A stretch of DNA of 64,000 bases, taken from assembly GCA_910890315.1 (NCBI GenBank), contig CAJVGD010000006.1, positions 496,001-560,000 on the forward strand. Direction: 5' to 3'. The DNA is from Serendipita indica DSM 11827 (lineage: Eukaryota > Basidiomycota > Agaricomycetes > Sebacinales > Serendipitaceae). Of this stretch, positions 1,922 to 46,597 are shown piece by piece. The notes under the pieces were generated by a model. The model searched no databases. It saw only the letters and a program-made list of their open reading frames with translations, and was not told the DNA's origin. The translations under genes and the position numbers were made by a program. Position 1 is the first letter of the stretch. Each line of letters starts with the position of its first letter.

Positions 1922-4085
1922 TCACTGCTTGAACAACAGACAATCCTCTGCGGAGTATCGAGAAACCTCTAGCAAGCCCCCAAAGCGTCCACAGTCGAAT
2001 TTTCGGTGAGAAAGATCGTACCCGGGATTATATATATGCTCAACCTGCACGTAGCGTATATCCCACGTTCTGAGTATCTCGTCGACTCCCGAGGGATAAT
2101 CGATGGTCGGCTCTGACCAGACAGGAGACGTATGAAGCACCTTCAGTTCGCAAGGATAAAGGTACCTGTGACACTCGACGCATCCGGGGCTAGAACAGGC
2201 TTCAGTATAGAGCCAAACCGTTTACTCCCACTCACATATCTGCATCTAGGAAGATACCCAGGTTACCCTGCATGGAAAGCTCGTAGTTTGACGGTCGAGA
2301 GACGACGTGTCCCGCGAGAAGCAAAGCAAGTGAATGCTTAATTCTCTTTGGAATCAGCCTATGAAATATCAAATTCTCGATAGGCTTGACCCCCTGTGTC
2401 TGCGTGAGTAGCCGCTTCTCCAGCAAAATAAAGAGGATATCCCATTCGGGACAGGTTTGCAAAATGAGCGTCTCGAGTAAAGGAAGCTCGTTGGGATGCA
2501 TCGCTAGATAGTGAATCATGTCTGTAACGAGGGGTTGGCGCGACAGTGATAGTTGCCTCAATGCATCGAGACCATATACCATGACAGAATTCATGTGCAA
2601 ACTCAGACTCCGTAAAGAAGGCCAATCACGTCCGGTGATTTCGATGATCGGCGAAGACTCCATCATTAGAGGTCCGTAATCCAGTTTACTTGTACTTGTA
2701 CTTCCCAATGAATTAAGAGCATCGATAGATCCTGCAATCCAAACCATCTCCAATTTCGGGCAGGCCAATATATGCCTAGTAGTGTTTGGTTCAAAAGTAG
2801 ACTCGCAACCGTCTAGTTGAAGTTTTCGCAAATCTTTGAGCTTATCGATCTCGGCAAAGTCGAGTTTGTTTGCACGACACCTGGTTAGCGATAGAGATTC
2901 TAGTCGTGGAGACATACGAAGGAGTAAAGGCAGGATATCGCCCGTGATTTCGACATTCGATATATCTGAAGTTAGACTCAAGTTTATTGTCCGGATCCTG
3001 GTTTTGTAGTTATCATGACCACTAGATATGGCCGACGTCTCCAGTGCCGTATGCCCGTATAAGTCTATGCTAAGGTCCTCAAGGAAAATAAGCCTCGATA
3101 GTATCTCGACCAGTTCTGGCGTTGCTGTCTTATCAATGTTCATAAGTGTCAACGAGACAAGCGCTGTACAACGACCAAGTATCCCTCGAACCCCCTTCCA
3201 GGGAAAGTTGCTAATGAAGAGCTTCTCCCAGCCCAAGAGGTGTCGTCTCTCTTCAATGATGATTGACGAATCCCCCGACGCTTCATACGGTCCGAAGATA
3301 CCAACATCCTGGAGCGTCATAATGTCTTCGAGACGCTGAACAGCCGCCATAGATAGCATATTTGAATGAAAAGAGACTAGGGATTCCTCTCTGACCTTCA
3401 AATTGATATAGAAACAGTCGCCTTCTATCACATAATTGTAGGGGGACCATGCCTTGTGATGCAAAAACCATAGAAGGATGCTCTCGGGAGGTATATAGTG
3501 TGTGGTAATCTCCCGTAGAGATGGAAATACGGTATGGGGGAAGAATGGGTCCGTTGTAAGGTTGCGTGCAGGATTATGGTACTGCCATAGAAGTTGTAAA
3601 TGCGCGACACGATGAATATGAGGCTGAATTAGATGAGCAACCTTACGGATAATATCAGATTCCGCACAATAAGTCAGATCCAGTGAGCAATCTCCCGAGA
3701 GCTCGAGTATAACGGCCGTCATTGCCTCGAGGTCTTCTGTATTCTCTTCCAAGGAGATACGAGACCAGAAGGATTGCGTCTGGAGAATCAATTGCGCCCA
3801 TCTATGATTGACCAAGGTAAGGACCAGTAGCTCTCGATGGTATCCACGGTATCCGACCCAAGCTGCCTTCTGGATGATGGCGATCAAGATTTCGTTTGGA
3901 AGACGTTCTATGCTTCTTCTTGGATCTTTATCACGAACACGGGCCAATGACTCGACGCCTAGATTATAATCTCTAAGGATGTCCGTGTCGACGCTGCTTG
4001 TATCTCCAGAGTAGTTGTAGAAACGGGCGATATGGCTTCTCGTGAAAAGTATCTGATCTCCGGTGAACTGTTCAGGGTGCTGCAT
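1922..4085 (-). CDS. F-box/LRR-like protein, array member A (intact)
   Basis: Predicted SCF ubiquitin-ligase adaptor. Two exons: 2236-4085 and 1922-2189, joined across a 46-nt phase-2 intron (GTGAGT to CTAG), giving about 705 aa. Residues 1-50 carry the family motif RFYNYSGDTSSVDTDILR. The F-box follows (RLPNEILIAIIQKAAW, then HRWAQLILQTQSFWSRI). The body is a degenerate leucine-rich-repeat-like region ending in CPEWDILFILLEKRLL and RPSNYELSMQGNLGIFLD. The last exon has PGCVECHRYLYPC, VDEILRTWDIRY and EVSRYS. The start codon is the ATG that aligns with MQ(H/R)PEQ in the other copies. It is the last gene of the leftward array, 448 bp from copy B. Substrate unknown; the F-box call rests on motif spacing, not on a profile search. 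Confidence 0.85.
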
Positions 4086-4533
4086 AATGAGGCTTGTGAT
4101 GGTGGGGTCAAAGGTTTGATGAACTCAAGTTGGACACACATTCTGTAATATGAGAGGATTCCGTGGATTCATGTTGACCGCTCCTCAAATTCTGCATCCG
4201 CAAGGGCGTAGTAAGGCAATCTCATTGTTATATCGTAAATCCGGAACGGCCGAGTGCTCGTGCCATAAATGATAACGAATACTTCAGTCTAATGGTGGTA
4301 GGTAGCCACGAATTAGTACGCAGTTTGTTACTCCGGGTCATGATGCAGAGGTCTCGACATTGACTCGGGTTGAATCCACGAATCAATGATAGTACATTCT
4401 ACATCACCCGCAGTCACATGTGCCACCAATGGTCTCCTTTGACGTGTTCACAAGAGGCCCAATAAGAGAGTTCACATCTTCCATGCTGCTTATAGCGATC
4501 AAACGGCATACCAAAGTAATTAATTTGGTAGAA
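4086..4533 (-). promoter_or_regulatory. Array spacer with the promoter of copy A; empty insertion site
   Basis: This 448-bp spacer between the 3' end of copy B and the ATG of copy A has no gene. Read on the minus strand it is clearly related to the Q-R and R-S spacers at 39.86-41.13 and 43.28-44.45 kb: shared blocks include ACATGTGCCACCAATGG inverted, the CCGTTCCGGATTTAC block and CATCAAACCTTTGACCC just before the ATG. The 13-mer CATCAAACCTTTG occurs once here (4109-4121 on the minus strand). In the other two spacers an insert of 0.7-0.8 kb sits exactly at this 13-mer. Conservation between paralogues suggests the promoter was duplicated with each gene. No TATA box or defined operator is claimed. 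Confidence 0.6.
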
Positions 4534-6667
4534 TTACACTATTGAATAACGGGAAACCTCTACGGAGCCGCGAAAGCGTTTACACTGTGCTTCTCGAGGA
4601 AGATCCATGGGAAAAAGAGGATGATGTATACTCCTCATTTGCCCATAGCGCATAGCTTGTGTTCTGAGTATCTCGTCGACACTCTCCGGGTATTCGTAAG
4701 AGGCTCTGGACAGATAGGATATGTACGAGGTACCGCCAAGTCGCAGGGATACAGGTAGAGGTGGCACTCGATACACCCTGGGCTAACGTAGTCTTTAGTA
4801 CACTGTCGGTAATCTCTTGATGCCACTCACATATTGGTGTCCAAGAAGATATCCAGGTTTCCTTGCATTGAAAGCTCGTAGTTTGACGGTCGCGGGAGGA
4901 TGTGTCCTGCGAGAAGTGATGCAAGCGAATTTTTATCGTCGCCGGGATTGCCCTATCAAATATTAAACTCTCAAGAGGCTTGATTCCATATTTTTGTGAG
5001 AATAGCCGCTTCTCCAGCATAATAAATAGGATATCCCATTCAGGACAGGCGCGCAGGCCGAGTGTATCCAGCAAAGGAAGCTCGCTGGGATGCATTGCTA
5101 GATAGAGAATCATGGTTGTGACTAAGGATTGGCTCCACAGTGATAGTTGTCTCAATGAATCGAGTCCACACAGCGTGGGAGTAGAATCCATAGACAACCT
5201 CAGACTCCGTAGAGAAGGCCAATCTCGTCCGGTGATTTCAATGATCGGTGAAGACTCCAGCGTTATATGTCCATAGTCCAGTTCACTTGCACTTGAACTT
5301 GCCAGTATATTCAGAGCGCCGATGGATCCTGAAATCCGCACCGTCTCCAATTTCGGGCAGGCCAGCATATGCCTGGTAGTGCTTGGTTCGAGAATAGACC
5401 CACAATTGAATAGGTACATTTTTCGCAACTCCTTGAGCTTGTCGATTTCAATGAAGTCGAGCTTGTTCACACGATACCCCGACAGCGACAGCGATTCTAG
5501 CCGTGGAGACATACGAAGGAGTAAAGGCAAGATATCGCTCGTGATTTCCATATTCGATATATCTGGACTCAGAGTCAAGTGTATTGACCGGATCCTTGTG
5601 TTGTAACCATCGTGATTACTAGATATGGCCGACGTCTCCAGTGCTGTATGCCCGTATAAGTGAATGCTAATGTGCTCGAGGGAAACAAGCCGTGGTATTA
5701 TTCGGGCTAATTCCAGCGCTGCTGTCTCATCGATACCCATAAGTGACAACGAGACAAGCGACGTACAGCGATCAAGTATCCCTTGGATCCTCTTCCAGGG
5801 AAAGGCGCTAATGAACAGCCTCTTCCAGCCCAATATTTTTCGTCTCTCTTTGACGGCGGTTGACAAATCTTCCAATGATCCGAAGATACTAACACTTTCG
5901 AGCGTCGGAATGTCTTCAAGGCGCTGAATAGTCGCCAGAGATATCACAGTTGACTGAAAAGAGACCAAATCTTCCTCTCTGGCTTTCAATTCGACAGAGA
6001 AACTGTCGCCTTCTATCAGATGTTTGTAAGGGGCCAAAACCTCGTGATGTGAGAGACATGTGACAATGCTCTTGGGAGGTATATAGTGCGTGGAAATACT
6101 TCGCAAGGATGGAAATACAGTATGAGGGAAGAATGGGTCTGTACCGTGGTCGCCTTGGCCATAATGCTGTAGAACCTCCAAATGCGTGACACGGTGAATT
6201 TGAGGCCGAATTAGGTGAGCAACCTTACGGATAACATCAGATTCCGCATAGTAAGTCAGCTCAAGGGGAGAATCTCCCGAGAGCTCGAGTATAACGGCCG
6301 TCACTGCCTCAAGGTCCTCGCTATTCTCTGTCAAGTCGACCCGATTCCAGAGGTATTGTGTTTGAAGTATCAATCTCGTCCATCTACGATTGATCAAGGT
6401 AAGAACCAGCAGGTCATGATGGTATCTAGTGGATCCGACCCAAGCTACTTTCTCGATGATAGCTATCAAGAGTTCGTTTGGAAGACGCTCTATACTCCTT
6501 TTTGGGTCTTTATCACGAGCATCAGCCAATGACTCGACGCCTAGATTATAATCTCTGAGGATGTCCGCGTCGACGCTGCTTGTATCTCCAGAGTAGTTGT
6601 AGGAACGGGCGATATGGCTTCTCATGAGAAGAATCTGATCGCTAGAGCGCTCTTCAGGGTGCTGCAT
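4534..6667 (-). pseudogene. F-box/LRR-like protein, array member B, frameshifted
   Basis: Nearly identical to copy D (9472-11607) throughout, including start, F-box (ERLPNELLIAIIEKVAW), CPEWDILFIMLEKRL and the 48-nt terminal intron (4783-4830). Compared with D it lacks one base at about 4935 (after a run of five T on the plus strand) and one at about 4695. The first gap moves exon 1 out of frame before RPSNYELSMQGN; the open frame then runs on as unrelated sequence through the intron to 4580. The second gap shifts the last exon before the VDEIL block. If both gaps are real the C-terminus is lost and this is a young pseudogene. If they are base-calling errors the gene is intact at about 695 aa. 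An upstream in-frame ATG lies at 6718. Confidence 0.7.
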
Positions 6668-6960
6668 ACTAAAAGGCATATGGTGGCGCGGGCCAAGTTT
6701 ATCATGTTGACATTCCACTAGGCCGTGAGGCCGAAGTAGAGTTTCCCCTATCGAACCAGTAATTGAAGCGGTTCAAGAGTCGTGTTCATGTCTTTACATC
6801 TTTTCATCTGAAGTTCATATGGCCTGTACCGCAACCTAAGCTGGACCGTATTTTTTTAGTACAAAATATTCTCTAGCCACTTAGTCTGCTTCCTATCCAA
6901 AACGGGTATAATCACTGCACCGGTCGATCATATTATCCCATGGAATATCGAGAGACTTCA
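4534..6960. repeat. Segmental duplication, unit 1 (partner 9472-11900)
   Basis: The block covers copy B, its whole 265-bp upstream spacer and the last few codons of the next gene (C). It is repeated with few differences at 9472-11900, where it covers copy D, its spacer and the last codons of E. Right of the block the two sites diverge: at unit 1 the C reading frame continues through its last exon, while at unit 2 sequence jumps straight to a later part of the C-like coding region. High identity in non-coding spacer as well as exons indicates a recent duplication or recent gene conversion rather than purifying selection alone. Confidence 0.85.
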
Positions 6961-9097
6961 ACCAGCCAGGGTGTCCCTCCGCATGCCGAATGTCTGTAGG
7001 ACCTCCCCCGAAAGCGAGAGGGAAAATATATATCTTCCAGTTGGATATACCGCGCAGCTTGCGTTCTCAGTATCTCGTCGGCACTTGCTGGGTAAATGCT
7101 GGTCGGGCGTGACTTTATTGTGGGCATAGTGTTCACAGGGCGATTGCAAGGGCGAAGGTAAAGATGACACTGGGTACATCCAGGACTGTCACGGGTCTTT
7201 AGTATTTCATTGCAAACAATCAAAATTACTCACAGGTCTGCATCCAAAAAGGCGTCTAGATTCCCTAGCATGGATAGCTCGTAATTTGATGGTCGTGAGA
7301 CGATATGTCCGGCTAGAAGCCGAGCAAGAGGCTGCTTGATTGTAGGTGGTGGATCTCGGTTAAATGTTATCCTTTCGATTGACTTGACGTTGCTCGTCTG
7401 TACAAGAAGCCTCTTCTCGAGCATGATAAAGAGAATGTCCCATTCGGGACAGGTATATAGCTCGAGTGTGTCGAGTAAAGGAAGCTCGGTGGGATGTATC
7501 GCCAGGTAGTGGATCGTTGCTGTGGCTATGGATCGGCTCGATAATGTCAGTCGCTCCAACGAATTTACCAAGCCGATATCATAAACTTTTGTGGTGGCAC
7601 CGGTCCCCAGACTGAAAACGCTGAGCGAGGGCCACTCCTGTTCACTGACTTTAATAGCCTCCGGTATATTCTCGGTCGTAGAGGGCATAAGTTCGCAGTA
7701 AAGCTCACTTGCAGTCGTGCTTCCAAGTGATTCAAAGATGTCTATAGACCCACGGAGTTCCACAATCTCCAAATTAGGCGAGGCCAGTATATGCCTGGTC
7801 TCGTTTGATGCGAGTTCATATTCGCACCCATTGAAGACAAGTTTTTGCAACCTCTTGAGCTTGTCAATCTCTGTAAGGGTAAGCTTACTTAGACGAGTAT
7901 TAGAGAGCCTCAGTGACTCCAGGTGTTGGGACATGCGAAGTAGGGGAAGTAGGATATCGGTAGTGATGTCCATTCTTGAGGTATGCGAGTCCAGAACGAG
8001 TCCTATTGTCCGAATCCTTGTTTCCTCCTTGGTATCCTCATTAGATATGACGAGCGTGTGTGGCGACGTGTCCCAGACTAATTCGATGACAATGTGCTCG
8101 AGGACGGCAAGCCGGGGGATCAGCTTGACCAATGCTGGTGTCTCTCTCCAATCAATCGTCAATGTCAACGAAACGAGACACGTACAGCGACTAAGGAGCT
8201 GACAGGTCACTCGCCACGGAACCTGACGAATCTCGAGCTCTTGCCAGCCCAAGGAGTGTCGCCTCGCCTCAAGCTCGGTCACCCAATCTCCCGACGCGCT
8301 ATGAAATCGATGCATGAAAACATGCTTGAGAGGTGTGATATCCACAATCTGGTTAACAGTCACCATCGTCGACACGGGCAAACCAATCGAGAGAAGTTGG
8401 TTCCCTTTGACTGCCAAGTTGAATCGGAAACTGGTGTCAGGTACCAGATTCGTGAAAGCTGCGAAGGCTTCGTGCTGCGAAAGAAGTGCGATGACGCTCT
8501 CGGAAGGCACGCCCGCTGTACTGATTTCCGTAATGAGGGAAATATGGTTCGGGGGAAGAATGGGTCCGTATCAAGAGTGCTTTCGCTATAATACTGTATG
8601 AGACGCAAATGCGCGACTCGGTGGAGATGAGGTTGAAGTAGATAGGCAACCTTGTGGATGATATCAGATTTTACCTGGTAAGCCAATTCAAGCGAACAAT
8701 CTCCCGAGAGCTCAAGGGCAACGGCTGTCATCGCCTCGAGATCCTCTAGATTGTCCCTCAAGGTGATCCGGGTCCAGAGAGATTGCGTTTTGAGAATCAG
8801 ATTTGCCCATTTACGGTTTACCAGGGTAAGGTCAAGTAACTTTTGATAGAGTCTACTGGACTCCAACCAACCGACGACTACATGCTGGATGATTGCAATC
8901 AGGAGTTCGTTTGGAAGACACTCTAGACTCCTTCTTGGATCTTTATCACGAGCATCAGCCAATAACCCGATGCTTAAATTATAGTCTCTGAGTATCTCCG
9001 CGTCGACGTCGCTCGTATCTCCAGAGTAGTTATAGAAGGAGCGATATGACTTCATGAGAAACATCTGACCATCGGCGCTCTGTTCAGGACGCTGCAT
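6933..9097 (-). pseudogene. F-box/LRR-like protein, array member C, single frameshift
   Basis: The N-terminal part reads in one frame from the ATG at 9097 (MQRPEQSADGQ, family motif SFYNYSGDTSDVDAEILR, F-box ECLPNELLIAIIQHV) to FPSLR near 8530. The LRR-like body and CPEWDILFIMLEKRLL continue in another frame from about 8527 to 7234. One extra base near 8525-8530 (beside TTTCC on the plus strand) would restore a continuous product, with REIST aligning to the other copies. Exon 1 ends at 7234, a 48-nt intron (7186-7233, GTGAGT to ACAG) follows, and the last exon is 6933-7185 with PGCTQCHLYLRPC, ADEILRTQAARY and EVSRYS. Except for the single indel every family feature is kept, so decay is very recent or only apparent. 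Confidence 0.7.
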
Positions 9098-9471
9098 AGC
9101 GAGGTTTATGGTGGTCAGGTCAAAGGTTTTATGACTCAAAGTTGCCCATTCCGTGATATTAGAGGACTCCGTGAATTCACGTTGATCACTCTTCGAATTC
9201 TGCATCCGCAAGGGCGTAGGCGAGCCCGGCACTCTCACCGTCATGTCTTATACTCGGGACGGCCGAATGCTCATTGTCAATGAAAGCGAACACATTTTTT
9301 CAATGGTAATAGGTTGGCACGCAGTTTGCCTGCATTCCATATTACTAGACTCATATTTGCCACCAATGGTTTCTTTGACATGTCGAGGAGAAGATCAATG
9401 AGAGTTCACATCTCCCGTGCTGCTTACAAATAACGATCAAACTGCATACCAAAATAGTCACTTTGGTGGCA
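9098..9471 (-). promoter_or_regulatory. Array spacer with the promoter of copy C
   Basis: A 374-bp spacer between the 3' end of copy D and the ATG of copy C, without a gene. Read on the minus strand it keeps blocks found before copies A, R and S: the CACCAATGGTTTCTTTGAC region, ACGGCCGAATGCTCA, GCATCCGCAAGGGCGTAG inverted, and AAAACCTTTGACC just upstream of the ATG. Like the A-B spacer it is an uninterrupted version of the site that carries a 0.7-0.8 kb insert before R and S. Confidence 0.5.
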
Positions 9472-11607
9472 TCACACTACTGAATAGCGAGAAACCTCTA
9501 CGGAGCCGCGAAAGCGTTCACACTGTGCTTCTCGAGGGAGATCCATGGGAAAAAGAGGATAATGTATACTCCTCATTTGCCCATAGCGTATAGCTTGTGT
9601 TCTAAGTATCTCGTCGACACTCTCCGGGTATTCCGTAAGAGGCTCTGGACAGATAGGATATGTACGAGGTACCGCCAAGTCGCAGGGATACAGGTAGAGG
9701 TGGCACTCGATACACCCTGGGCTAACGTAGTCTTTAGTACACTGTCGGTAATCTCTTGATGCCACTTACATATTGGTGTCCAAGAAGATATCCAGGTTTC
9801 CTTGCATTGAAAGCTCGTAGTTTGACGGTCGCGGGAGGATGTGTCCTGCGAGAAGTGATGCAAGCGAATTTTTGATCGTCGCCAGGATCGCCCTATCAAA
9901 TATTAAATTCTCAAGAGGCTTGATTCCATATGTTTGCGTGAGTAGCCGCTTCTCCAGCATAATGAATAGAATATCCCATTCAGGACAGGCGTACAGGCCG
10001 AGTGTATCCAGCAAAGGAAGCTCGCTGGGATGCATCGCTAGGTAGAGAATCATAGTTGAGACTAAGGATTGGCTCCACAGTGATAGTTGTCTCAATGAAT
10101 CGAGTCCACACAGCGTGGGAGTAGAATCCATAGACAACCTCAGACTCCGTAGAGAAGGCCAATCTCGTCCGGTGATTTCAATGATCGGTGAAGACTCCAG
10201 CGTTATATGTCCATAGTCCAGTTCACTTGTACTTGAACTTGCCAGTATATTCAGACTGGCGATGGATCCTGAAATCCGCACCGTCTCCAATTTCGGGCAG
10301 ACCAGCATATGCCTGGTAGTGTTTGGTTCGAAAATAGACCCACAATCGAATAGGTGCATTTTTCGCAACTCCTTGAGCTTGTCGATTTCAATGAAGTCGA
10401 GCTTGTTCACACGATACCTCGATAGCGACAGCGATTCTAGCCGTGGAGACATACGAAGGAGTAACGGCAGGATATCGCTCGTGATCGTCATATTCGGTAT
10501 ACCTGGACTCATACTCAAGTATATTATCCGGATCCTTGTGTTGTAGACATCGTGGTTACTAGATATGGCCGACGTCTCCAGTGCTGTATGTCCGTATAAG
10601 CCAATGATAATGTACTCGAGGGAAACAAGCCGTGGTATTATTCGGGCTAATTCCAGCGCTGCTGTCTCATCGATACCCATAAGTGAAAACGAGACAAGCG
10701 ACGTACAGCGATAAAGTATCCCCTGGATCCTCTTCCAGGGAAACCCGCTAATGAATAGACTCTTCCAGGCCAAGTGGTGTCGTCTCTCTTTGATGGCGGT
10801 TGACGAATCTTCCAATAATCCGAAAATACTTACACTTTCGAGCGTCGGAATGTCTTCAAGCCGACGAATAGTCGCCAGAGATGTCACAGTTGACTGAAAA
10901 GAGACCAAATATTCCTCCCTGGCTTTCAATTCGACAGAGAAACTGCCGCCTTCTATCAGATGTTTGTAAGGGGCCAAAACCTCGTGATGTGAGAGACATG
11001 TGACAATGCTCTTGGGAGGTATATAGTCCGTGGAAATACTTCGCAAGGATGGAAATACAGTATGAGGGAAGAATGGATCAGTACCGTGGTCGCCTTGGCC
11101 ATAATGCTGTAGAACCTCCAAATGCGTGACACGGTGAATTTGAGGCCGAATTAGATGAGCAACCTTACGGATAACATCAGATTCCGCATAGTAAGTCAGC
11201 TCAAGGGGAGAATCTCCCGAGAGCTCGAGTATAACGGCCGTCACTGCCTCAAGGTCCTCGCTATTCTCTGTCAAGTCGACCCGATTCCAGAGGTATTGTG
11301 TTTGAAGTATCAATCTCGTCCATCTACGATTGATCAAGGTAAGAACCAGCAGGTCATGATGGTATCTAGTGGATCCGACCCAAGCTACTTTCTCGATGAT
11401 AGCTATCAAGAGTTCGTTTGGAAGACGCTCTATACTCCTTTTTGGGTCTTTATCACGAGCATCAGCCAATGACTCGACGCCTAGATTATAATCTCTGAGG
11501 ATGCTCGCGTCGACGCTGCTTATATCTCCAGAGTAGTTGTAGGAACGGGCGATATGGCTTCTCATGAGAAACATCTGATCGCTAGAGCGCTCTTCAGGGT
11601 GCTGCAT
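9472..11607 (-). CDS. F-box/LRR-like protein, array member D (intact)
   Basis: Exons 9770-11607 and 9472-9721, joined over a 48-nt phase-2 intron with a consensus GTAAGT donor and GTTAG acceptor; together about 695 aa with no frame break. Order of elements: SYNYSGDISSVDASILR (residues about 25-45), F-box ERLPNELLIAIIEKVAW with RRWTRLILQTQYLWNRV, LRR-like repeats, CPEWDILFIMLEKRLL, RPSNYELSMQGNLDIFLD, then last exon PGCIECHLYLYPC, VDEILRTQAIRY, RGSVEVSRYS. The start is set by alignment to MQHPEE; an in-frame ATG 51 bp upstream (11658) is also present in B. It is the intact twin of B and the best reference for the family in this half of the window. Role as an SCF adaptor follows from the F-box only. 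Confidence 0.85.
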
Positions 11608-11900
11608 ACTAAAAGGCATGTGGTGGCGCGGGCCAAGTTTATCATGTTGACATTCCACTAGGCCGTGAGGCCGAAGTAGAGTTTCCCCTATCGAACCAGT
11701 AATTGAAGCAGTTCAAGAGTCGTGTTCATGTCTTTACATCTTTTCATCTGAAGTTCATATGGCCTGTACCGCAACCTAAGCTGGACTGTATTTTTCTAGT
11801 ACAAACTATTCTCTAGCCGCTTAGTCTGCTTCCTGTCCAAAACGGGTATAATCACTGCACCCGTCGATCATATTATCCCATGGAATATCGAGAGACTTCA
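9472..11900. repeat. Segmental duplication, unit 2 (partner 4534-6960)
   Basis: Second copy of the roughly 2.4-kb block holding an F-box gene plus its upstream spacer. The spacer part (11608-11895) matches 6668-6955 almost base for base, including AGGCCGTGAGGCCGAAGTAG and CCCATGGAATATCGAGAGAC. Just beyond, at about 11895-11905, the sequence joins to a segment equivalent to 7285 onward in copy C, so a stretch of about 330 bp present next to unit 1 is absent here. Confidence 0.85.
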
Positions 11901-13024
11901 GCCGGTCGTGAGACGATATGTCCCGCTAGAAGCCGAGCAAGAGGCTGCTTGATTTTAGGTGGTGGATCTCGGTTAAATGTTATCCTTTCGATTGACTTGA
12001 CGTTGCTCGTCTGTACAAGAAGCCTCTTCTCGAGCATGATAAAGAGAATGTCCCATTCGGGGCAGTCTCGCAGCTCGAGTGTGTCAAGCAGAGGGAGTTC
12101 ACCAGAATTTACCGCGAGATGATGGATCATCGTGACCACCAATGATCGGCCCATCAATTCCAAACAGCACAGCAACCTGGTCGAGATGACTTGGTCGATC
12201 TTTGTGGTCATAGGCATGGAGAGCGTCAACAAACTTGCAATCTGTAGGGATGGCCAATGTTCTTCGCACACCTCTATGGTCTCTGGTGGAGAGTCTGTCC
12301 CATGATAAGGACGTCCGTAGACCAGCGGCTTGCAAGTCAGACTACCAAGGGAGGTGAGAACATTGTGACAACCTTTAATGTCCACTACATCCAAACCCGG
12401 CGAGAGGAGTATATGCCTCTTGTCGTTTGGATTGAGTATGAAATCGCACGCACTCAATGTCAGTTCTCTCAAGTTTTCGAGTTTGTCAAAATCTGTAAAG
12501 TCACGCTGCGCGCCCTTGTATTCTTCCATTCGAAATGACTCGAGTCGATGAGCCATACGGAGGGGATATAGGACGGTGTCTGCCATTGAGCTAAAGGAGC
12601 TCAAGATGACATCTATTGACCTGACCCCAGTTCGGTCGCTCTTGCCAATCTTGGGGGCAGCCGGATGTACTCGTCGACTTTGCCAAGGCACAGCGCATTT
12701 GATGGAAATATGGTCAAGATATTCCAGACGTGGAATCATTTTTAGCAGTTCCGGCGTATCTTCCCACTTGGTTGCTACCGTCAGTGAAACGAGCAGCGTC
12801 TGTGGGTCGATGTGAGTTGTATCCCCAGAGTAGTCGTAGGAACGAGCAATCTGGCGTGTAAGAAGGAGAGAGCTTTGCATGACGATTGATGGTAACGGTT
12901 GAAGTTGTTCGGGTGGCTCAGATAGATTAATCAAGGCTTGATTTGATGCTAGTGTGGGTTGTTGAGTTCGGAGGTAATAGTCGCGGTCTGGAATCGCATT
13001 GAATGGGCGCGGGGGCCGTGGCAT
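11873..13024 (-). CDS. F-box-family derivative lacking the F-box (array member E)
   Basis: A single open frame that keeps pieces of the family but has lost two parts. The N-terminal motif IARSYDYSGDTTHIDPQT runs straight into LLVSLTVATKWEDTPELL, so the F-box and roughly the first third of the LRR-like body are missing. At the other end LLAGHIVSRP runs straight into AEVSRYSMG and the stop, so the RPSNYELSMQGN tail, the intron and the Cys-rich last exon are missing. Both junctions stay in frame. The central part is normal, with CPEWDILFIMLEKRLL. Start is uncertain: ATG at 13024 (MPRPPRPFNAIPDRDYY), 12880 (MQSSLLL, aligned with the family) or 13165. The motif SYDYSG..HIDP is shared with G, not with A-D. 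It may be a functional adaptor-less protein or a decaying gene. Confidence 0.7.
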   Translation of the reverse strand: MPRPPRPFNAIPDRDYYLRTQQPTLASNQALINLSEPPEQLQPLPSIVMQSSLLLTRQIARSYDYSGDTTHIDPQTLLVSLTVATKWEDTPELLKMIPRLEYLDHISIKCAVPWQSRRVHPAAPKIGKSDRTGVRSIDVILSSFSSMADTVLYPLRMAHRLESFRMEEYKGAQRDFTDFDKLENLRELTLSACDFILNPNDKRHILLSPGLDVVDIKGCHNVLTSLGSLTCKPLVYGRPYHGTDSPPETIEVCEEHWPSLQIASLLTLSMPMTTKIDQVISTRLLCCLELMGRSLVVTMIHHLAVNSGELPLLDTLELRDCPEWDILFIMLEKRLLVQTSNVKSIERITFNRDPPPKIKQPLARLLAGHIVSRPAEVSRYSMG

Positions 13025-13200
13025 GTGAATGGGGTGGTGGCTTATGTAATCTGATATTTGCAAATCCAAAATGAATGGGAATAGAGTAGTTGAAATCCGT
13101 TTACGAGTCCCGAGCCCGACCTTGTCCGATTTTGCAATGCGGGTTCCGAGACAACATATAGGCAACTGGGGATCAGAAAGTCGATTGCAACTTTGCCATT
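13025..13200. promoter_or_regulatory. Divergent intergenic region between E and the next gene
   Basis: Only 176 bp separate the chosen start of E (minus strand) from the ATG at 13201 on the plus strand, so the two share a promoter region. It is also the inversion axis of the first F-box locus: all paralogues to the left read leftward and those beyond the next gene read rightward. No specific binding site is recognised. Confidence 0.45.
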
Positions 13201-18150: not shown

Positions 18151-18296
18151 CTATAAATATCTCTTAACACATGTGCATATCAGCTGTTAGACCATATGCG
18201 AGGATTTAGCAGATTAATGAAGTCGCGCGCAACTTGAACTCGTCCATCTCCAACTTTCCACGTCTACGCCGGGTTTGAGAAAACCTCACTTCTAGG

Positions 18297-25257: not shown

Positions 25258-25261
25258 TTAA

Positions 25262-29900: not shown

Positions 29901-29983
29901 AGTTCAAGCTTGCTTCATTTTCGTGTAAGATGTGTACACAAATCATTAAATCGATCCTATGCTACGACTATGCTACCATCGTT

Positions 29984-35549: not shown

Positions 35550-35983
35550 TTTGGAATGAAATAACGAGTGTAAGAGCGATCTAGAATATCGCAGATAATA
35601 CTGAGAATTTATAAGGACGAGCAGAAGTGGCGGGCTCTGTCCTGGGCAAGTCGTGAGTGAAGTCCAAGGCGGTTGTACCACTGACCCAGCCTCTTCAATT
35701 GGGCACGATCGATGGCTGCTGTGCACAATTCTCAGACATATTCAGACATCTTTTTCATGATTTACTTTACATGTCTCAGATCTGGCCACTCACCGGAGCT
35801 TGTGGCGCTTCGGTCGGCTGAACAGCGCAGCTTTTCCGGATAGCCGTCTCCTTATTTTATTTTTTTTTGCTTTCGGAGTTGCTGTTGTCATGAATATATA
35901 TCAGCAGCCAGCACACTGACATATGCATAATGGCCCACTTGACTGGTGGGCGCGGGGGCTAAAAAAAAAGGTTGGCTGGCACC
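35550..35983. promoter_or_regulatory. Divergent intergenic region, Opy2-like gene / cytochrome P450
   Basis: 434 bp between divergent start codons. It contains a T-rich tract (about 35855-35870), TATATATCAG near 35895 and a run of nine A residues 14 bp before the P450 ATG. No binding site can be named. Confidence 0.4.
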
Positions 35984-37579: not shown

Positions 37580-37718
37580 AGGTACCTTAGAATGTAGAAA
37601 AAATTAAAACATATATTTCCAATTCTTGCATATTGCTCAATGTAGGAGTGTGGATAGCCCGTGTAATGGTTCAGTATTGACAAGTCAACTCTTCGACCCA
37701 ACCATTACAAGCCTTATT

Positions 37719-39857
37719 ATGCCGTGCCCTGAACAGTGCTCCGCCGATCAGATGCATCTTATGAGAAGCCATATCGCTTCCTCATACAACTACTCTGGAG
37801 ATCTCAACGGCGTTGACGCGGACATCCTCAGAGACTATAATCTAGGTGTCGAGTCATGGGCTCATGCTCGCGATAAAGACCCAAAAAGGAGTATAGAGCG
37901 CCTTCCAAACGAACTCTTGATCGTCATCATTCAGAAGGCAGCTTGGGTCGGATACCCTGGATACCATCGAGAGCTGCTCGTTCTTAGCTTGGTCAATCGA
38001 AGATGGGCGGGATTGATTCTTCGAACACAATACTTCTGGAATCGGGTCTACTTGAAAGACAATATCGAGGATCTCGAGCCAATGACGGCCGTTATACTCG
38101 AGCTCTCGGGAGATTCTCCCCTTGAGCTGACTTACTATGCGGAATCTGATGTTATCCGTAAGGTTGCGCACCTAATTCGGCCTCACCTCCACCGTATCAC
38201 GCGTTTGGAGGTTCTACAGCATTATGGCCAAAGCGACCACGGTACTGATCCATTCTTTCCCCATACTGTATTTCCGTCCCTGCGGAATATTTTAACACAG
38301 CATATACCTCCCAAGAGCATTGTAGCATGTCTCTCACATCACGAGGTTTTGGCCCCTTACAAACATCTGATAGAAGGCGACGGTTTCTTTGTTGAATTGA
38401 AAGTTACGGAGAAGAATCGGGTCTCGTTTCGGTCAACTGTGACATCTGTGGCGAATATTCAGCGTCTTGAAGACATTCCAACTCTAGAATGTGTTAGTAT
38501 CTACGGAGGTTATGAACTATCGAGGGATTTGTCGACCGCCGTCAAGGAGACACGACGTCACTTGGGCTGGAAGACGCTGTTCATTAGCAGATTTCCCTGG
38601 AAGAGGATCCGAGGAATACTTGGTCGCTGTACGTCGCTTATCTCGTTGGCACTTATGGATATCGATCAGATAGCAGCCCTGGAATTGACCCAAATGATAC
38701 CGCGGCTTACCTTCCTCGAGGACATCAGCATCCAGTTCATCGAGGTCCCGATGTCGGAGACGCCAGTTATGCCTGTTGGTGAAGACGTTAGCCACGAAAC
38801 AAAAATACAGACAATGCATTTGCGTCTGCGTCCAGGTATACCGAATATGACGATCACAGGCGATATCCTGCATTTACTCCTTCGTATGTCCCCCCGGCTA
38901 GAATCCCTGTCGCTATCGGGGTATCGTGTGAACAAGCTCGACTTCATTGAAATCGGCAAGCTCAAGGAGTTGCGAAAAATAGACCTATTCGATTGTGAGT
39001 TTATTTCCGAACCAAACACTACCAGGCATATGCTGGCCTGCCCGAAATTGGAGACGGTGCGGATTTCAGGATCCATCGACGCTCTTGATTCGCTGGCAAG
39101 TTCAAGTGCAAGTGAACTGGATTACAGACTTGAGATGAGGGCTTCACCGAGAATCGAAATCAACGGACGAGATTGGCCTTCTTTACGGAGTCTGAGGTTG
39201 TTTATGGATTCTACTCCCATAATGTGTGGTCTCAATTCATTGAGGCATCTATCATTATGGAGCCAGTCCCTAGTCACGACTACGATACCCTATCTAGCGA
39301 TGCATCCCAGCGAGCTTCCTGTGCTGGAGACGCTCGACCTGCACGCCTGTCCTGAATGGGATATCCTCTTTATTATGCTGGAGAAGCGGTTACTCACGCA
39401 AACATATGGAATCAAGCCTATCGAGAATTTAATATTTGATAGGGCGATCTCGACGAGGATTAAACATTCCCTTGCGTCACTCCTCGCAGGACATATCTTC
39501 CCGCGACCATCAAACTACGAGCTTTCAATGCAAGGAAACCTGGAACTCTTCTTGGACACCAATATGTGAGTGATATCAAGAGATTGCCGACTGCATGCTA
39601 AGGATTTGATTAGCCCTGGATGTGTAGATTGTCACCTCTACCTATATCCCTGCGACTTGGTGGTACTTCATACATCTCCTATCGGGTCAGTGTCTACCAT
39701 CGAATATCCAGAGAGTGTCGACGAGATACTGAGAACACAAGCTATGCGCTATGAGCAAATGAGGAGTATACATTATCCTCTTTTTCCCACAACTCGAGAG
39801 CCGCAGTGTAACCGCTTTCGCGGCTCCGTAGAGGTTTCTCGTTACTCATTGGCATGA
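37719..39857 (+). CDS. F-box/LRR-like protein, array member Q (intact)
   Basis: Exons 37719-39565 and 39614-39857 with a 48-nt phase-2 intron (GTGAGT to ATTAG), about 696 aa. Elements in order: IASSYNYSGDLNGVDADILR (about 24-44), F-box ERLPNELLIVIIQKAAW with RRWAGLILRTQYFWNRV, LRR-like body, CPEWDILFIMLEKRLL, RPSNYELSMQGNLELFLD. The last exon has PGCVDCHLYLYPC, VDEILRTQAMRYEQMRS and RGSVEVSRYS. The upstream in-frame ATG at 37626 is ignored because all relatives begin at the later ATG. It opens the second array, 140 bp after the P450. Its last 0.35 kb and terminal exon are nearly identical to those of S. Confidence 0.85.
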
Positions 39858-41131
39858 TGCCACATACTCAATGTGATTGCTTTGATATGCAGTTTGATCG
39901 TTATTTGTAAGCAGCGTGGAAAATGTGAACTCTCTTATTGGGCCTCTTGTGAACACATCAGAAGAGACCATTGATGGCACATGTGACTGTGGTTGATATA
40001 GAGTGTACTATTGTTGATTCGTGGATTCAACCCAAGTCCATATCAAAACCTCTGCATCATAACCCAGACTAGCAAACTGCTTGCTAATTCGTGGCTAAAT
40101 ACCACCACTGGATTGAAGTATTCGTTATCATTTGTGACCACGAGCACTGGGCCGTTCCGGATTTACGACATGATGAGGAGAGTGCGGGGCTTGCCTACGC
40201 CCCTGCAGATGCAGAATTTGAGGAATGATCAACGTGAACCCACGAAATTCTCTCGTATCACGGAATGTGTGTCTAACTTTGAGTCCATCAAACCTTTGTG
40301 AGAGAGAGAGATATCTCATTGGCCCTCGCTAGCAGGTACTACAAATAGAACCAAGGCGCGATCTAAGAAGACAAGGGGCACTACGTAGGTGATTCGGGTT
40401 GGTGGGACTAGGGTACGCTCTGTTGTGGAGGTGATGGATGTGTGCAGGGAGGTGTTGTTTGTGGTAGGTAGTAAAAGTATGTTCCTGAGCAATGAGAAAT
40501 GATCGCAATCCTAGAAACCTATGATTTGGCTCCGTGTCCTTTGGTCCTTGTGAACATGTGGAGGCAAGGCGTGGGGTTATTGCACGTTTGGTGGGCGGGT
40601 TGGATGGGCAGACGACAAGTTATTGTTGAGCTGTTGAGTTGCTGTAGTCGTGTAGTTGAGTTTGGGTTTAGTGTTGGCAGCAGCAGGCGGACGGGTGGAC
40701 GACAAGTTGGTGTGTAAGAGAGTAAGGTGGGCAGGCGCACGCTTTGCATAGTACCTGGGTTCGTCTGGATGATTCATGCTATCTACGCTGATTGATATGC
40801 GACGGACATCGTCTGTGTATCGCGACTGGTGTGAGCACCTACTCGCGCGGGATAGCGGAGGGATTCTTGGGACCACTTCCTAAATGTCTGCCCATTGGCT
40901 GACTACCTTTTCTAGGTTATTATCCCCCGGCGTAGGACATCTGGTTAGCGGACAAAGGTCTGGCCGCGGTGTTGTATGGTGCTGTGCTGTTAGTGCGGAT
41001 GTGGTCGGGTCCAAGAGCCCTCCATCAAACCTTTGAGAGAGAGAGAGATATCTTATTTGCCCTCGCTAGCAGGTACTACGTGGAACCAAGGCGCGCATCA
41101 AACCTTTGACCCACCCATTACAAGCGTTATT
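39858..41131 (+). promoter_or_regulatory. Array spacer Q-R carrying a 0.8-kb insert
   Basis: The first about 430 bp correspond to the short spacers before A and C (ACATGTGACTGTGG, CCGTTCCGGATTTACGAC, GCCCCTGCAGATGCAGAATT). The final 23 bp before the ATG correspond to the same short spacers again. Between them lies an insert absent from those spacers. No coding potential is seen. The whole spacer is repeated between R and S. Confidence 0.6.
40286..41108. mobile_element. Unclassified 0.8-kb insertion with 13-bp target duplication, copy 1
   Basis: The 13-mer CATCAAACCTTTG occurs at 40286-40298, 41023-41035 and 41096-41108; the two outer copies bound a stretch missing from the A-B spacer, where the 13-mer is single. 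The first two copies of the 13-mer are each followed by about 60 bp of related sequence containing AGAGAGAGATATCT, CCCTCGCTAGCAGGTACTAC and AACCAAGGCGCG, giving a direct repeat of about 73 bp at both ends of the insert. The interior is GT-rich on the plus strand, without ORF, tRNA-like box or obvious inverted repeat. A short non-autonomous retroelement, or insertion plus local tandem duplication, are possible origins. No family is recognised. Confidence 0.55.
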
Positions 41132-43276
41132 ATGCAGCGCCCCGAACAGTGCTTCGACGATCAGACGCTTCTCATGAGAAGCCATATTGCTCGCTCCTAT
41201 AACTACTCTGGAGATACCAGCGGCGTCGACGCGGAGATGCTCAGAGGCTATAATGCAGCCATCGATTTATTGGCTCATGCTCGTGAAAAAGATCCAAAAA
41301 GCAGCATAGAACGTCTTCCGAACGAGCTCTTGATCGCCATCATCGAGAAAGTAGCTGACCGTTGGGGGGGATGTTACCCTATTAATTACCAGCGGGACCT
41401 GCTCGTTCTTAGCTTGGTCAATTGTAGATGGGCGACATTGATTCTTCAAACGCAATACCTCTGGACACGAATCTATTTGACAGAGAATATTGAGGACCTC
41501 GAGGCAATGACGGCCATAATACTCGAGCTCTCAGGAGATTCTCCCCTCGAACTGGCTTACTATGCAGAATCTGATATTATCCGTAAGGTTGCTCACCTAA
41601 TTCAGCCTCATCTCCACCGTGTCACGCATTTGAAGCTTCTACAGTATCATGGCGAAAGCGACCACGGTACTGACCCATTCTTCCCTCATACTATATTTCC
41701 ATCTCTGCAGGATATTTCGACACAGTATATATCACCCAAGGACATTGTAGCATGTCTCTCACATCACGAGGTTCTGGCCCCTTACAAACATCTGATAGAA
41801 GGCGACGTTTTCTCTGTCGAATTGAAAGTCAAGGAGAAAAAATTGGTCTCATTTCAGTCAACTGTGATATCTCTGGCGACTATTCAGCGCCTTGAAGACA
41901 TTCCGACGCTCGAAAGTGTTAGTATCTTCGGATCATTGGAAGATTCGTCAACCACCGTCAAAGAGAGGCGACAACTATTGGGCTGGAAGAGGCTGTTCAT
42001 TAGCGCCTTTCCCTGGAAGAGGATCCAAGGGATACTTGATCGCTGTACGTCGCTCGTCTCGCTATCACTTATGGGTATCAATAGGATAGCAGCGCTGGAA
42101 TTAGCCCGAATAATACCACGACTTGTTTCCCTCGAGTACATTAGCATTGACTTATACGGGCATACAGCACTGGAGACGTCGGCCATATCTAGTAATCACG
42201 CTGGTTACAACACAAGGATCCAGACAATACACTTGAGTCTGAGTCCAAATATATCGAATATGGAAATTACGAGCGATATCTTGCCTTTACTCCTTCGTAT
42301 GTCTCCACGGCTAGAATCGCTGTCGCTATCGGGTTTTCATGTAAATGAACTCGACTTCACCGAAATTGACAAGCTCACGGAGTTGCGATATTTGGACCTA
42401 TTCAATTGTGAGTCTACTCTCGAGCCAAACACCACCATGCATATGCTGGCCTGCCCGAAATTGGAGACGGTGCGGATTTCAGGATCCATCGGCGGGCTGA
42501 ATATACTGGCAAGTTCAAGTGCAAGTGAACTGGACTATGGACATATAACGCTGGAGTCTACACCGATCATCATCACCGGACGAGATTGGTCTTCTCTACG
42601 CACTCTGACATTCTTTGGGGATTGCACTCCCATGTTGTGTGGTCTCGATTCATTGAGACAACTATCACTGTGGAGCCAATCCTTAGTCGCAACCATGATT
42701 CTCTATCTAGCGATGCATCCCAGCGAGCTTCCTTTGCTGGATACACTCGGCCTCCACGCCTGTCCTGAATGGGATATCCTATTTATTATGCTGGAGAAGC
42801 GGCTATTCGCACAAACATATGGAATCAAGCCTATCGAAAATTTAATATTTGCTAGGGCGATCCCGATGAGGATTAAACATTCACTTGCGTCACTCCTCGC
42901 AGGACACATCTTCCCGCGACCGTCAAACTACGAGCTTTCAATACAAGGAAACCTGGAACTCTTCTTAGACACCAATATGTGAGTGATATTAAGAGATTGC
43001 TGATTGCACGCTAAGGATTTGATTAGCCCTGGATGTGTAGATTGTCATCTCTACCTATATCCCTGCGACGTGGTGGTACTTCATACATCTCCTGTCGGGT
43101 CAGTGTCTACCATCGAATATCCAGACAGTGTCGACGAGATACTGCGAACACAAGCTATGCGCTATGAGCAAATGAGGAGTATATATTATCCTCTTTTCCC
43201 TACAAGTATTCCTCGAAAAGCAGAGTGTAACCGCTTTCGCGGCCCCGTAGAGGTTTCCCGTTGTTCAATAGTGTAA
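41132..43276 (+). CDS. F-box/LRR-like protein, array member R (intact)
   Basis: Exons 41132-42978 and 43027-43276, 48-nt phase-2 intron (GTGAGT to ATTAG), about 698 aa. Contains IARSYNYSGDTSGVDAEMLR, F-box ERLPNELLIAIIEKVADRWG with CRWATLILQTQYLWTRI, LRR-like body, CPEWDILFIMLEKRLF, RPSNYELSIQGNLELFLD, and last exon PGCVDCHLYLYPC, VDEILRTQAMRYEQMRS, RGPVEVSRCS. The final motif is SRCS instead of SRYS, the only such change among the copies. Its 5' half and upstream spacer are nearly identical to those of S. An in-frame ATG at 41033 lies inside the insert-derived sequence and is not used here. Confidence 0.85.
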
Positions 43277-44447
43277 ATTTCACCAAATTAATTACTTTGG
43301 TATGCAGTTCGACCGTTATCTGCAAGCAGCAGGGAAGATGTGAACTCTCCTATTGCGCCTTTTGTGAACACGTCAAAAGAGACCATTGGTGGCACATGTG
43401 GATGTGGGTGATATAGAATGTACCATCATTGATTCATGGATTCAACCCAAGTCCATATCAAAACCTCTGCATCATAACCCAGACTAGCAAACTGCTTGCT
43501 AATTCGTGGCTAAATACCACCACTGGATTGAAGTATTCGTTATCATTTGTGACCACGAGCACTGGGCCGTTCCGGATTTGCGACATGATGAGGAGAGTGC
43601 GGGGCTTGCCTACGCCCCTGCAGATGCAGAATTTGAGGAATGATTAACGTGAATCCACGAAATCCTCTCGTATCACGGAATGTGCGTCTAACTTTGAGTC
43701 CATCAAACCTTTGTGAGATAGAGATATCTCATTGGCTCTCGCTAGCAGGTACTACAAATAGAACCAAGGCGCGATCTAAGAAGACAAGGGGCACTACGTA
43801 GGTGATTCGGGTTGGTGGGACTAGGGTACGCTCTGTTGTGGAGGTGATGGATGTGTGCAGGGAGGTGTTGTTTGTGGTAGGTAGTAAAAGTATGTTCCTG
43901 AGCAATGGGAAATGATCACAATCCTAAAAACCTATGATTTGGCTCCGTGTCCTTTGGTCCTTGTGAACATGTGGAGGCAAGGCGTGGGGTTATTGCACGT
44001 TTGGTGGGCGGGTTGGATGGGCAGACGACAAGTTATTGTAAGGTGGGCAGGCGCACGCTTCGCATAGTACCTGGGTTCGTCTGGATGATCCATGCTGTCT
44101 ACGCTAATTGATATGCGACGGACATCGTCTGTGTATCGCGACTGGTGTGAGCACCTACTCGCGCGGGATAGCGGAGGGATTCTTGGGACCACTTCCTAAA
44201 TGTCTGCCCATTGGCTGACTACCTTTTCTAGGTTATTATCCCCCGGCGTAGGACATCTGGTTAGCGGACAAAGGTCTGGCCGCGGTGTTGTATGGTGCTG
44301 TGCTGTTAGTGCGGATGTGGTCGGGTCCAAGAGCCCTCCATCAAACCTTTGAGAGAGAGAGAGATATCTTATTTGCCCTCGCTAGCAGGTACTACATGGA
44401 ACCACGGCGTGCATCAAACCTTTGACCCACCCATTACAAGCGTTATT
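43277..44447 (+). promoter_or_regulatory. Array spacer R-S, near-identical to spacer Q-R
   Basis: 1171 bp without a gene. From about 43370 on it matches 39960-41131 almost base for base, including the inserted element, so spacer and gene were duplicated together after the insertion. Confidence 0.65.
43701..44424. mobile_element. Unclassified insertion with 13-bp target duplication, copy 2
   Basis: Second copy of the insert described at 40286-41108, with CATCAAACCTTTG at 43701-43713, 44339-44351 and 44412-44424 and the same terminal direct repeats. It is about 100 bp shorter: the stretch equivalent to 40626-40722 is absent. Otherwise the two copies are nearly the same. It sits in the same position relative to the next F-box gene, so it reached here by tandem duplication of the locus and not by a second insertion. 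Confidence 0.55.
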
Positions 44448-46597
44448 ATGCAGCGCCCCGAACAGTGCTTCGACGATCAGACGCTTCTCATGAGAAGCCA
44501 TATTGCTCGCTCCTATAACTACTCTGGAGATACCAGCGGCGTCGACGCGGAGATGCTCAGAGGCTATAATGCAGCCATCGATTTATTGGCTCATGCTCGT
44601 GAAAAAGATCCAAAAAGCAGCATAGAACGTCTTCCGAACGAGCTCTTGATCGCCATCATCGAGAAAGTAGCTGACCGTTGGGGGGGATATTACCCTATTA
44701 ATTACCAGCGGGACCTGCTCGTTCTTAGCTTGGTCAATTGTAGATGGGCGACATTGATTCTTCAAACGCAATACCTCTGGACTCGAATCTATTTGACAGA
44801 GAATATTGAGGACCTCGAGGCAATGACGGCCATAATACTCGAGCTCTCAGGAGATTCTCCCCTCGAACTGGCTTACTATGCAGAATCTGATATTATCCGT
44901 AAGGTTGCTCACCTAATTCAGCCTCATCTCCACCGTGTCACGCATTTGAAGCTTCTACAGTATCATGGCGAAAGCGACCACGGTACTGACCCATTCTTCC
45001 CTCATACTATATTTCCATCTCTGCAGGATATTTCGACACAGTATATATCACCCAAGGACATTGTAGCATGTCTCTCACATCACGAGGTTTTGGCCCCTTA
45101 CAAACATCTGATAGAAGGCGACGTTTTCTCTGTCGAATTGAAAATCAAGGAGAAAAATTGGTCTCATTTCAGTCAACTGTGATATCTATGGAGAATATTC
45201 AGCGTCTTGAAGACATTCCGACACTCGAGGGTGTTAGTATCTTCGGAGATTATGAACCATCGGGAGATCTATCACCCCCGGTCAAAGAGAGACAACACAA
45301 ATTGGGCTGGAAGAGTCTTTTTATTAGCAGATTTCCCTGGAAGAGGATCCAAGGGATACTTGGCCGCTGTACGTCGCTCGTCTCGTTGTCACTTATGGGT
45401 ATCGATGAGACAGCAGCGCTGGAATTAGCCCAAATGATACCGCAGTTGATTCTCCTCGAGGAAATTAGCGTTGAATTAGATGGGGACACGGCACTAGAGA
45501 CGCCAGCCATATCGAGTGGCCATGGTAGCGACCAAACAAGGATACGGACAATAAGCTTGGATCTGAGTCGAGTTGTATCGAATACGGAAATCACGGGCGA
45601 CATCCTGCGTTTACTCCTTCCCATATCTCCGCGACTAGAATGGCTGTCGCTAAGGGGGTGTCGTATGAACAAGCTTGACTTCACTGAAATCAATAAACTC
45701 AAGGAGTTGCGAACACTGGTCCTATCCATTTGGGGGTCTACTCTCGAACCAAAAACTACCAGGCTTATGCTAGCCTGCCCGAAATTAGAGATGGTGCAGA
45801 TTTCAGGACCCACCAACGCTCTTAATTCACTGGGAAGTTCAAGTGCACGTGAACTGGACTATGAGTTTGCAGCGATGGAGTCTTCACCGATCATTAAAAT
45901 CACCGGACAAGATTGGCCTTCTCTACGGAGTCTGACGTTGTCTATGGATTCTACTCCCACGTTGTGTGGTCTTGATTCATTGAGACAACTATCACTGTGG
46001 AGCCAATCCTTAGTCACAACCATGATTCTCTATCTAGCGATGCATCCCAGCGAGCTTCCTTTGCTGGAGACGCTCGACCTGCACGCCTGTCCTGAATGGG
46101 ATATCCTCTTTATTATGCTGGAGAAGCGGTTACTCACGCAAACATATGGAATCAAGCCTATCGAGAATTTAATATTTGATAGGGCGATCTCGACGAGGAT
46201 TAAACATTCCCTTGCGTCACTCCTCGCAGGACATATCCTCCCGCGACCATCAAACTACGAGCTTTCAATGCAAGGAAACCTGGAACTCTTCTTGGACACC
46301 AATATGTGAGTGATATCAAGAGATTGCCGACTGCATGCTAAGGATTTGATTAGCCCTGGATGTGTAGATTGTCACCTCTACCTATATCCCTGCGACTTGG
46401 TGGTACTTCATACATCTCCTATCGGGTCAGTGTCTACCATCGAATATCCAGAGAGTGTCGACGAGATACTGAGAACACAAGCTATGCGCTATGAGCAAAT
46501 GAGGAGTATACATTATCCTCTTTTTCCCACAACTCGAGAACCGCAGTGTAACCGCTTTCGCGGCTCCGTAGAGGTTTCTCGTTACTCATTAGCGTGA
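44448..46597 (+). pseudogene. F-box/LRR-like protein, array member S, one frameshift, mosaic
   Basis: From the ATG to about 45180 the sequence is nearly identical to R. The homopolymer after GGAG has five A (45153-45157) where R has six (41837-41842), which shifts the frame and ends it at 45182. The body resumes in the next frame (RLEDIPTLEGVSIFGDYE) and runs to 46305; a 48-nt phase-2 intron and last exon 46354-46597 follow (PGCVDCHLYLYPC, VDEILRTQAMRYEQMRS, EVSRYS). The middle (45190-45950) is private to S, while the 3' end from about 46050 matches Q, not R. With one more A the gene would be complete at about 695 aa, so the pseudogene status depends on a single homopolymer call. Confidence 0.65.

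Follow-up and report, generated by a model that had tools for sequence, protein, structure and literature searches.

What does the short exon behind the 3' intron of a cluster of F-box genes contribute to their proteins in the root symbiont Serendipita indica? We addressed this question in a stretch of 64,000 nucleotides (nt) of the DSM 11827 genome (assembly GCA_910890315.1, contig CAJVGD010000006.1, positions 496,001 to 560,000 of the forward strand), hereafter the window, whose positions are counted from its first letter. The window holds ten copies of one gene for an F-box-like domain followed by leucine-rich repeats (LRR), nine of which (A, B, C, D, G, H, Q, R and S) keep a last exon, and this exon carries a module of four spaced cysteines. 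On balance we consider it reasonably probable that these genes encode substrate adaptors of Skp1-Cullin-F-box (SCF) ubiquitin ligases whose LRR part ends in an undescribed, probably zinc-binding, four-cysteine C-terminal domain. An earlier interpretation made from the DNA letters alone (the sequence-only reading) had pointed to the intron and to a Cys/His motif behind it. It placed the array at 1922-46597, coordinates that coincide exactly with the outer stops of the A and S last exons, and counted eight copies with a 3' end where its own list gives the actual nine.

Results

A phase-2 junction conserved across the family

In all nine window copies an intron with a GTGAGT donor (GTAAGT in D) and an AG acceptor interrupts the homologous codon in phase 2, with a length of 46 nt in A, 47 nt in H and 48 nt in the other seven copies; the intron of 46-48 nt at one codon and phase had been described correctly. 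Read in the frame of the main exon, the junction is AT/GTRAGT in eight copies and CT/GTGAGT in C (the slash marks the splice site). The Met of the (D/N)xM motif previously placed before the intron belongs to the unspliced reading, where AT and the G of the donor make ATG, while after splicing eight copies have Ile (ATC or ATA) and C has Leu (CTT). The genes apparently consist of two exons, and judging from the DNA they would be spliced in vivo at these sites.

Using the C-terminal 150 residues of the R main exon as query (E up to 1), we searched the 24.7-megabase assembly (55 contigs). Only the best candidates were scored and match counts are therefore lower bounds. At least 60 matches to this LRR end were found: 12 rows belong to the ten window copies, and the other 48 represent 46 loci outside the window (designated L below). 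All 46 outside loci were then scanned for an intron in any phase with a GTR or GCR donor at most 25 nt from the expected codon, any AG acceptor at an intron length of 36-75 nt, and CX2CX5-8C no more than 8 codons away from the junction. This arrangement was present at 40 of the 46 relatives, and none of 920 controls (20 per locus, dinucleotide shuffles of the sequence starting 10 nt ahead of the expected codon) produced it. Phase 2 was found at 40/40 loci and in all 43 candidate solutions, and Cys1 was located three codons past the junction at each of the 40. The donor occupied the exact expected codon at 33 of them, the remaining seven being off by multiples of three, and the introns measured 42-60 nt. 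The trait that had been presented as a local array thus forms an array here and extends genome-wide. An earlier scan (any GT donor, strict CX2CX6C, no control) had yielded 39/46, all in phase 2; it misplaced the donors of L032 and L043 and is superseded. These two loci have GC donors (GC-AG introns), the site being GT-AG otherwise.

Of the six loci that failed in the scan, L045 shows the same arrangement with a weak donor and is the 41st locus, L040 and L048 have degenerate modules, and L011, L015 and L016 form the clade considered in the Discussion. L009 (contig C40, L009:2965-5249) is not among these six, but its frame changes a few codons ahead of the splice site and the main frame runs past the donor, so the phase there is not independent evidence.

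A stricter joint pattern of acceptor, donor, CX2CX5-8C and R-x3-C was matched by 34 of 46 family loci and by none of 20 F-box loci without a match to the family LRR end (3 kilobases each, from the F-box onwards), which ties the module to this F-box/LRR family and not to F-box genes generally. Reverse strands gave 0/46 and 0/20 matches, respectively. On both strands of the window the pattern found eight matches only, all of them family copies, with the frame-broken copy B unmatched. F-box-like matches in the genome number at least 150, scored out of 372 candidates.

Unspliced, the frame stops at the donor codon in 37 of 48 family introns (nine from the window, 39 others), and the loss of the last exon from open reading frames (ORFs) called without splicing had been foreseen. 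We rejected this junction stop as a special feature, since NNG-TRA is the inevitable reading of any phase-2 intron that has a GTRAGT donor. Branch-like CTRA sites occur in 33/48 introns. Six introns (L024, L026, L032, L034, L037 and L047) are multiples of three without an in-frame stop; their retention would keep the module with an insert of 15-17 residues. In copy H a frame change before the intron creates one ORF (19555-20466) that runs through the intron into the module in frame, apparently by coincidence.

A module of four cysteines

The module was characterized on 49 exons, 8 from the window and 41 others, in which Cys1-3 are present by selection. Its signature is G-C-x2-C-x6-C, often with a YP pair, followed by a predicted helix with L-x-T-W-x2-R and then R-x3-C. 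The encoded C-terminal domain mostly has 75-130 residues across the family and 80-88 in the window, in line with the approximately 80 residues expected. The motifs said always to accompany it do not hold as written: instead of PGCxxCHLYL(Y/H)xC, copy G has RGC, A has CHRYLYPC and C has YLRPC, and VDEILxTQxxRY and EVSRYS are replaced by RTWDIRY in A, by SILETRQERY and EISRYS in H and, for the latter motif, by EVSRCS in R. The exon is also not intact in every copy, B changing frame with one base fewer than D.

Three cysteines had been recognized by the sequence-only reading and a fourth (Cys65 of Q) overlooked, although it is found in 44/49 exons without having been selected for. An Arg four residues before Cys4 is conserved in 47/49 and a second Arg in 46/49 exons. 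R-x3-C was observed in the tail of 43/49 exons, compared with a mean of 6.6 and a maximum of 14 in 1000 shuffles. Cysteine at all other module positions accounts for 42 of 4601 residues, and apart from the cysteines few positions are fixed. Metal binding, as proposed before, is plausible with four Cys as ligands; a CCHC set was rejected, since a His follows Cys2 in 23/49 exons and Cys4 is present in 44/49.

Profile searches with the last exon alone, suggested as a check by the sequence-only reading, gave nothing convincing in Pfam or the PDB. A Pfam scan of nine window last exons found no family for any of them. With 42 exons (an alignment leaving out S, L014, L019, L045, L047, L052 and L054), nine Pfam families each matched a single member, with a best E of 0.05 and two zinc-finger models at 0.066 and 0.11. 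PDB profile searches of the module had best E values of 0.11 (9 exons) and 0.47 (42 exons). A tblastn search of plasmids with the Q last exon found nothing. No account of this module was found in the parts of the literature that were accessible, supplements and most subscription papers lying outside that scope.

Gene copies and selection

The minus strand carries five copies, at 1922-12751, and the plus strand the other five, at 16012-20466 and 37626-46597, as follows.

1922..2189, minus strand: copy A last exon, four-Cys module
2190..2235, minus strand: copy A phase-2 intron, 46 nt
2236..4085, minus strand: copy A main exon, F-box-like and LRR, open frame (Pfam F-box-like, E 6.5e-6)
4540..4782, minus strand: copy B last exon, frame-broken, one base fewer than D
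4783..4830, minus strand: copy B phase-2 intron, 48 nt
4831..6667, minus strand: copy B main exon, frame change near 4931 (Pfam F-box-like, E 1.1e-5)
6933..7185, minus strand: copy C last exon, four-Cys module
7186..7233, minus strand: copy C phase-2 intron, 48 nt
7234..9145, minus strand: copy C main exon, frame changes at about 8495-8564 (F-box-like, E 4e-6)
9472..9721, minus strand: copy D last exon, four-Cys module
9722..9769, minus strand: copy D phase-2 intron, 48 nt, donor GTAAGT
9770..11607, minus strand: copy D main exon, open frame (F-box-like, E 1.2e-5)
11900..12751, minus strand: tenth copy, truncated, LRR part only, without last exon or F-box match
16012..17837, plus strand: copy G main exon, open frame (F-box-like, E 9e-5, under the Pfam cut-off)
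17838..17885, plus strand: copy G phase-2 intron, 48 nt
17886..18150, plus strand: copy G last exon, four-Cys module
18369..20160, plus strand: copy H main exon, pieces in three frames (F-box-like, E 1.2e-5)
20161..20207, plus strand: copy H phase-2 intron, 47 nt
20208..20466, plus strand: copy H last exon, four-Cys module
37626..39565, plus strand: copy Q main exon, open frame (Pfam scan)
39566..39613, plus strand: copy Q phase-2 intron, 48 nt
39614..39857, plus strand: copy Q last exon, four-Cys module
41033..42978, plus strand: copy R main exon, open frame, middle modelled as LRR solenoid
42979..43026, plus strand: copy R phase-2 intron, 48 nt
43027..43276, plus strand: copy R last exon, four-Cys module
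44415..46305, plus strand: copy S main exon, frame changes at about 45125-45170, mosaic (5' R-like, 3' Q-like)
46306..46353, plus strand: copy S phase-2 intron, 48 nt, same sequence as in Q
46354..46597, plus strand: copy S last exon, protein equal to that of Q, three synonymous changes

We calculated ratios of nonsynonymous to synonymous substitution rates (dN/dS) for the 28 pairs of the eight intact window last exons and set 8 pairs with saturated dS aside. In all 20 pairs with finite dS the ratio was between 0 and 0.51; eleven of these have dS above 1, and the nine reliable pairs (dS below 1) cover the same range of 0 to 0.51. Main exons gave a similar 0.23-0.63 over 21 pairs. The sequence-only reading had proposed coding constraint as a check, and these values, all below 1, fit purifying selection on the last exon. 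Between Q and S, three synonymous and no other changes were found in the last exon, which is partly an effect of gene conversion. Pair independence is reduced by gene conversion, S being R-like at its 5' end and Q-like near its 3' end.

Copy S (44038-46597 with its upstream DNA) is 98-100% identical to R up to about 45120 and 98-100% identical to Q from about 46019 to 46500, with a middle that is mostly 69-87% identical to either; its frame change (45125-45170) sits at the edge of the R-like stretch. Intergenic DNA upstream of R (40299-41021) and S (43712-44337) has 98-99% identity, compared with 75-87% for the coding middles, which may reflect recent conversion or unequal exchange.

Main exon

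The main exon is of the F-box/LRR (FBXL) type. PF12937 (F-box-like) was found in 9/9 module-bearing window copies, in eight of them over the cut-off of 24.3 bits (G, 22.6 bits). LRR_4 exceeded its cut-off of 27 bits in Q (35.5 bits) and came in just under it in R (26.9) and S (26.4). AlphaFold2 (AF2) modelled the copy R main exon, aligned with 10 other window rows, as a strand/helix solenoid with a mean predicted local distance difference test score (pLDDT) of 64.1 and a predicted template modelling score of 0.61; block means of 70-93 were reached across most of residues 151-530. The top Foldseek match of this model was rice ASK1-D3 (E 3.9e-7), followed by many other LRR proteins, and the best PDB sequence-profile match of the main exon was SKP2 (E 9.6e-4).

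Other features

The neighbouring ORF at 35-1333 matches SIR2 (E 9.5e-9) and that at 60655-61404 a PA domain (E 2e-9); for eight other large ORFs Pfam gave no match at 0.001. Searched with a degenerate pattern of the DELD C-terminal signature, the genome gave 18 matches, ten of them on contig C29:1858-128224, and both controls gave none. Such matches agree with Serendipita (Piriformospora) indica or a close relative as the most likely source of the DNA. In the available text of the genome report, DELD is described as specific to P. indica, with 25 proteins carrying the signature in a genome of 24.98 megabases, and the bare signature as present in some other fungal proteins too (PMC3192844).

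Discussion

F-box/LRR proteins serve SCF ligases as substrate adaptors, and the F-box-like domain docks on Skp1 as a family property. In the model that we favour, the first exon would encode such a domain, expected to dock on Skp1 here as well, together with the LRR solenoid, and the short phase-2 intron would join it to the last exon encoding the four-Cys C-terminal domain. The four cysteines would hold one metal ion, most likely zinc. As a cap, the domain would close off the open end of the LRR horseshoe, and it may help to hold or orient the substrate of the SCF ubiquitin ligase. Metal site and substrate presentation are proposed by analogy with the C-terminal LRR ends of D3 and FBXL5.

Several observations weigh against this model. 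Full-length module dN exceeds that of the main exon in 17 of 21 shared pairs (the exceptions being D-S, Q-R, Q-S and R-S), and Cys4 is absent from 5/49 exons. Structure prediction of the last exon, recommended by the sequence-only reading, yielded no usable fold and no structural support for a metal site: with window rows only, AF2 gave a mean pLDDT of 49.8 and a helix at residues 35-53 as the sole element, in which the L-x-T-W-x2-R block sits. Residues 558-627 of R, which adjoin the module, also have a pLDDT below 50, which leaves the LRR cap conjectural, and the F-box part is likewise below 50. The fold match to D3 is loose (template modelling score 0.34-0.36, root-mean-square deviation 8.8, 12% identity). 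Distant members are weak for the F-box, with nine of 12 main exons tested from outside the window (ten of the 46 relatives plus L009 and L010) at E below 0.03 and four of 12 over the cut-off. Finally, L011, L015 and L016 (C6:1473620-1497279) keep the later exon part and Cys2 and Cys4, having lost Cys1 and Cys3 (frames read by eye). They form a clade with 99/97 support in a tree of 47 rows, comprising all 10 window copies plus those 37 of the 46 relatives whose match was long enough, and the exon can therefore persist without the full Cys set.

This clade is one reason to see in the module a C-terminal LRR cap or peptide switch that holds no metal, with buried or structural cysteines and a tail like the C-terminal helix of D3, an alternative that we regard as rather unlikely, at perhaps one chance among several. 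The best fold match is D3, whose conserved C-terminal helix acts as a switch binding D14 according to the available part of the report (PMC11371169), and a helix is the only modelled element of the module. However, cysteines that are rare elsewhere in the module and near-invariant at four sites fit joint ligation better than packing.

It is less likely again that the four Cys hold an iron-sulfur cluster, or a redox-sensitive cofactor of another kind, through which substrate capture is gated, as at the C-terminal LRR end of human FBXL5. Four conserved Cys at the same place in the protein, the C-terminal end of an F-box/LRR architecture, agree with this, and the FBXL5 LRR domain binds a 2Fe-2S cluster that aids substrate recruitment, as far as the accessible text states (PMC12475580). 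However, FBXL5 was not among the PDB profile matches and Pfam scans found no hemerythrin domain. Moreover, CX2CX6C and a further Cys at a distance characterize zinc sites at least as well. A bolder version, in which the module is a new cofactor-binding domain that makes approximately 50 paralogous F-box/LRR adaptors metal- or redox-responsive as an independent parallel to FBXL5, appears doubtful; there, the four-Cys cluster would have to be loaded with iron-sulfur or zinc for substrate capture.

Regulated splicing, with intron retention yielding a truncated adaptor without the module and hence two proteins per gene, seems very unlikely. The donor stop in 37/48 introns and the six stop-free introns would suit it, but the stop follows automatically from phase 2 and GTRAGT, the six inserts are dissimilar except in L024 and L026, which are near-copies of each other, and one tree clade contains four of the six (L024, L026, L034 and L037), L047 being outside the tree. 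A decaying family in which the last exon survives as a non-functional remnant, or is a small gene of its own, is already contradicted and highly improbable: the main exon or module of B, C, H and S carries frame changes and L040, L048 and L009 are also disturbed, but no measurable dN/dS exceeds 0.51, all changes between Q and S are synonymous, the junction is fixed in 40/46 relatives and Cys4 is found in 44/49 exons. The separate gene was rejected because the exon keeps its phase and its distance from a common splice site and because, by eye, most exons lack a shared Met near their start.

A probable zinc-binding C-terminal domain on an SCF adaptor remains our preferred explanation. F-box families are large in mushrooms and allied fungi, and to our knowledge hardly any of their substrates have been identified. 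In one such family, approximately 50 divergent paralogues share a fixed four-Cys tail that offers a definable and assayable part and aids the recognition and correct annotation of members, in which the last exon is easily missed, lying 42-60 nt past a stop that the donor itself creates in most copies. Should the tail bind metal, an entire layer of protein turnover in this root symbiont could be under the control of metal or redox state.

Comparison with known systems

Expansion of F-box genes is shared with other Agaricomycetes. In the text available to us, the F-box is listed among the expanded domains of P. indica (PMC3192844) and 210 F-box genes are reported for Flammulina filiformis (PMC7567395), next to the at least 150 F-box-like matches found here. 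In contrast, the accessible portions of these accounts describe neither a C-terminal Cys module nor a shared phase-2 intron. With rice D3 (Arabidopsis MAX2) and SKP2, our family has in common an N-terminal F-box-like domain followed by an LRR solenoid. The difference lies in the four-Cys last exon, which is outside the fold-matched R model and without any match of its own. FBXL5 is set apart by the missing sequence match and hemerythrin domain mentioned above, and it holds a 2Fe-2S cofactor in its LRR domain. As described in the parts of two reports that were available, FBXL5 uses the distal LRR end for control or capture (PMC7729025, PMC12475580), and it is in this placement of functional elements at the C-terminal LRR end that it resembles the family characterized here.

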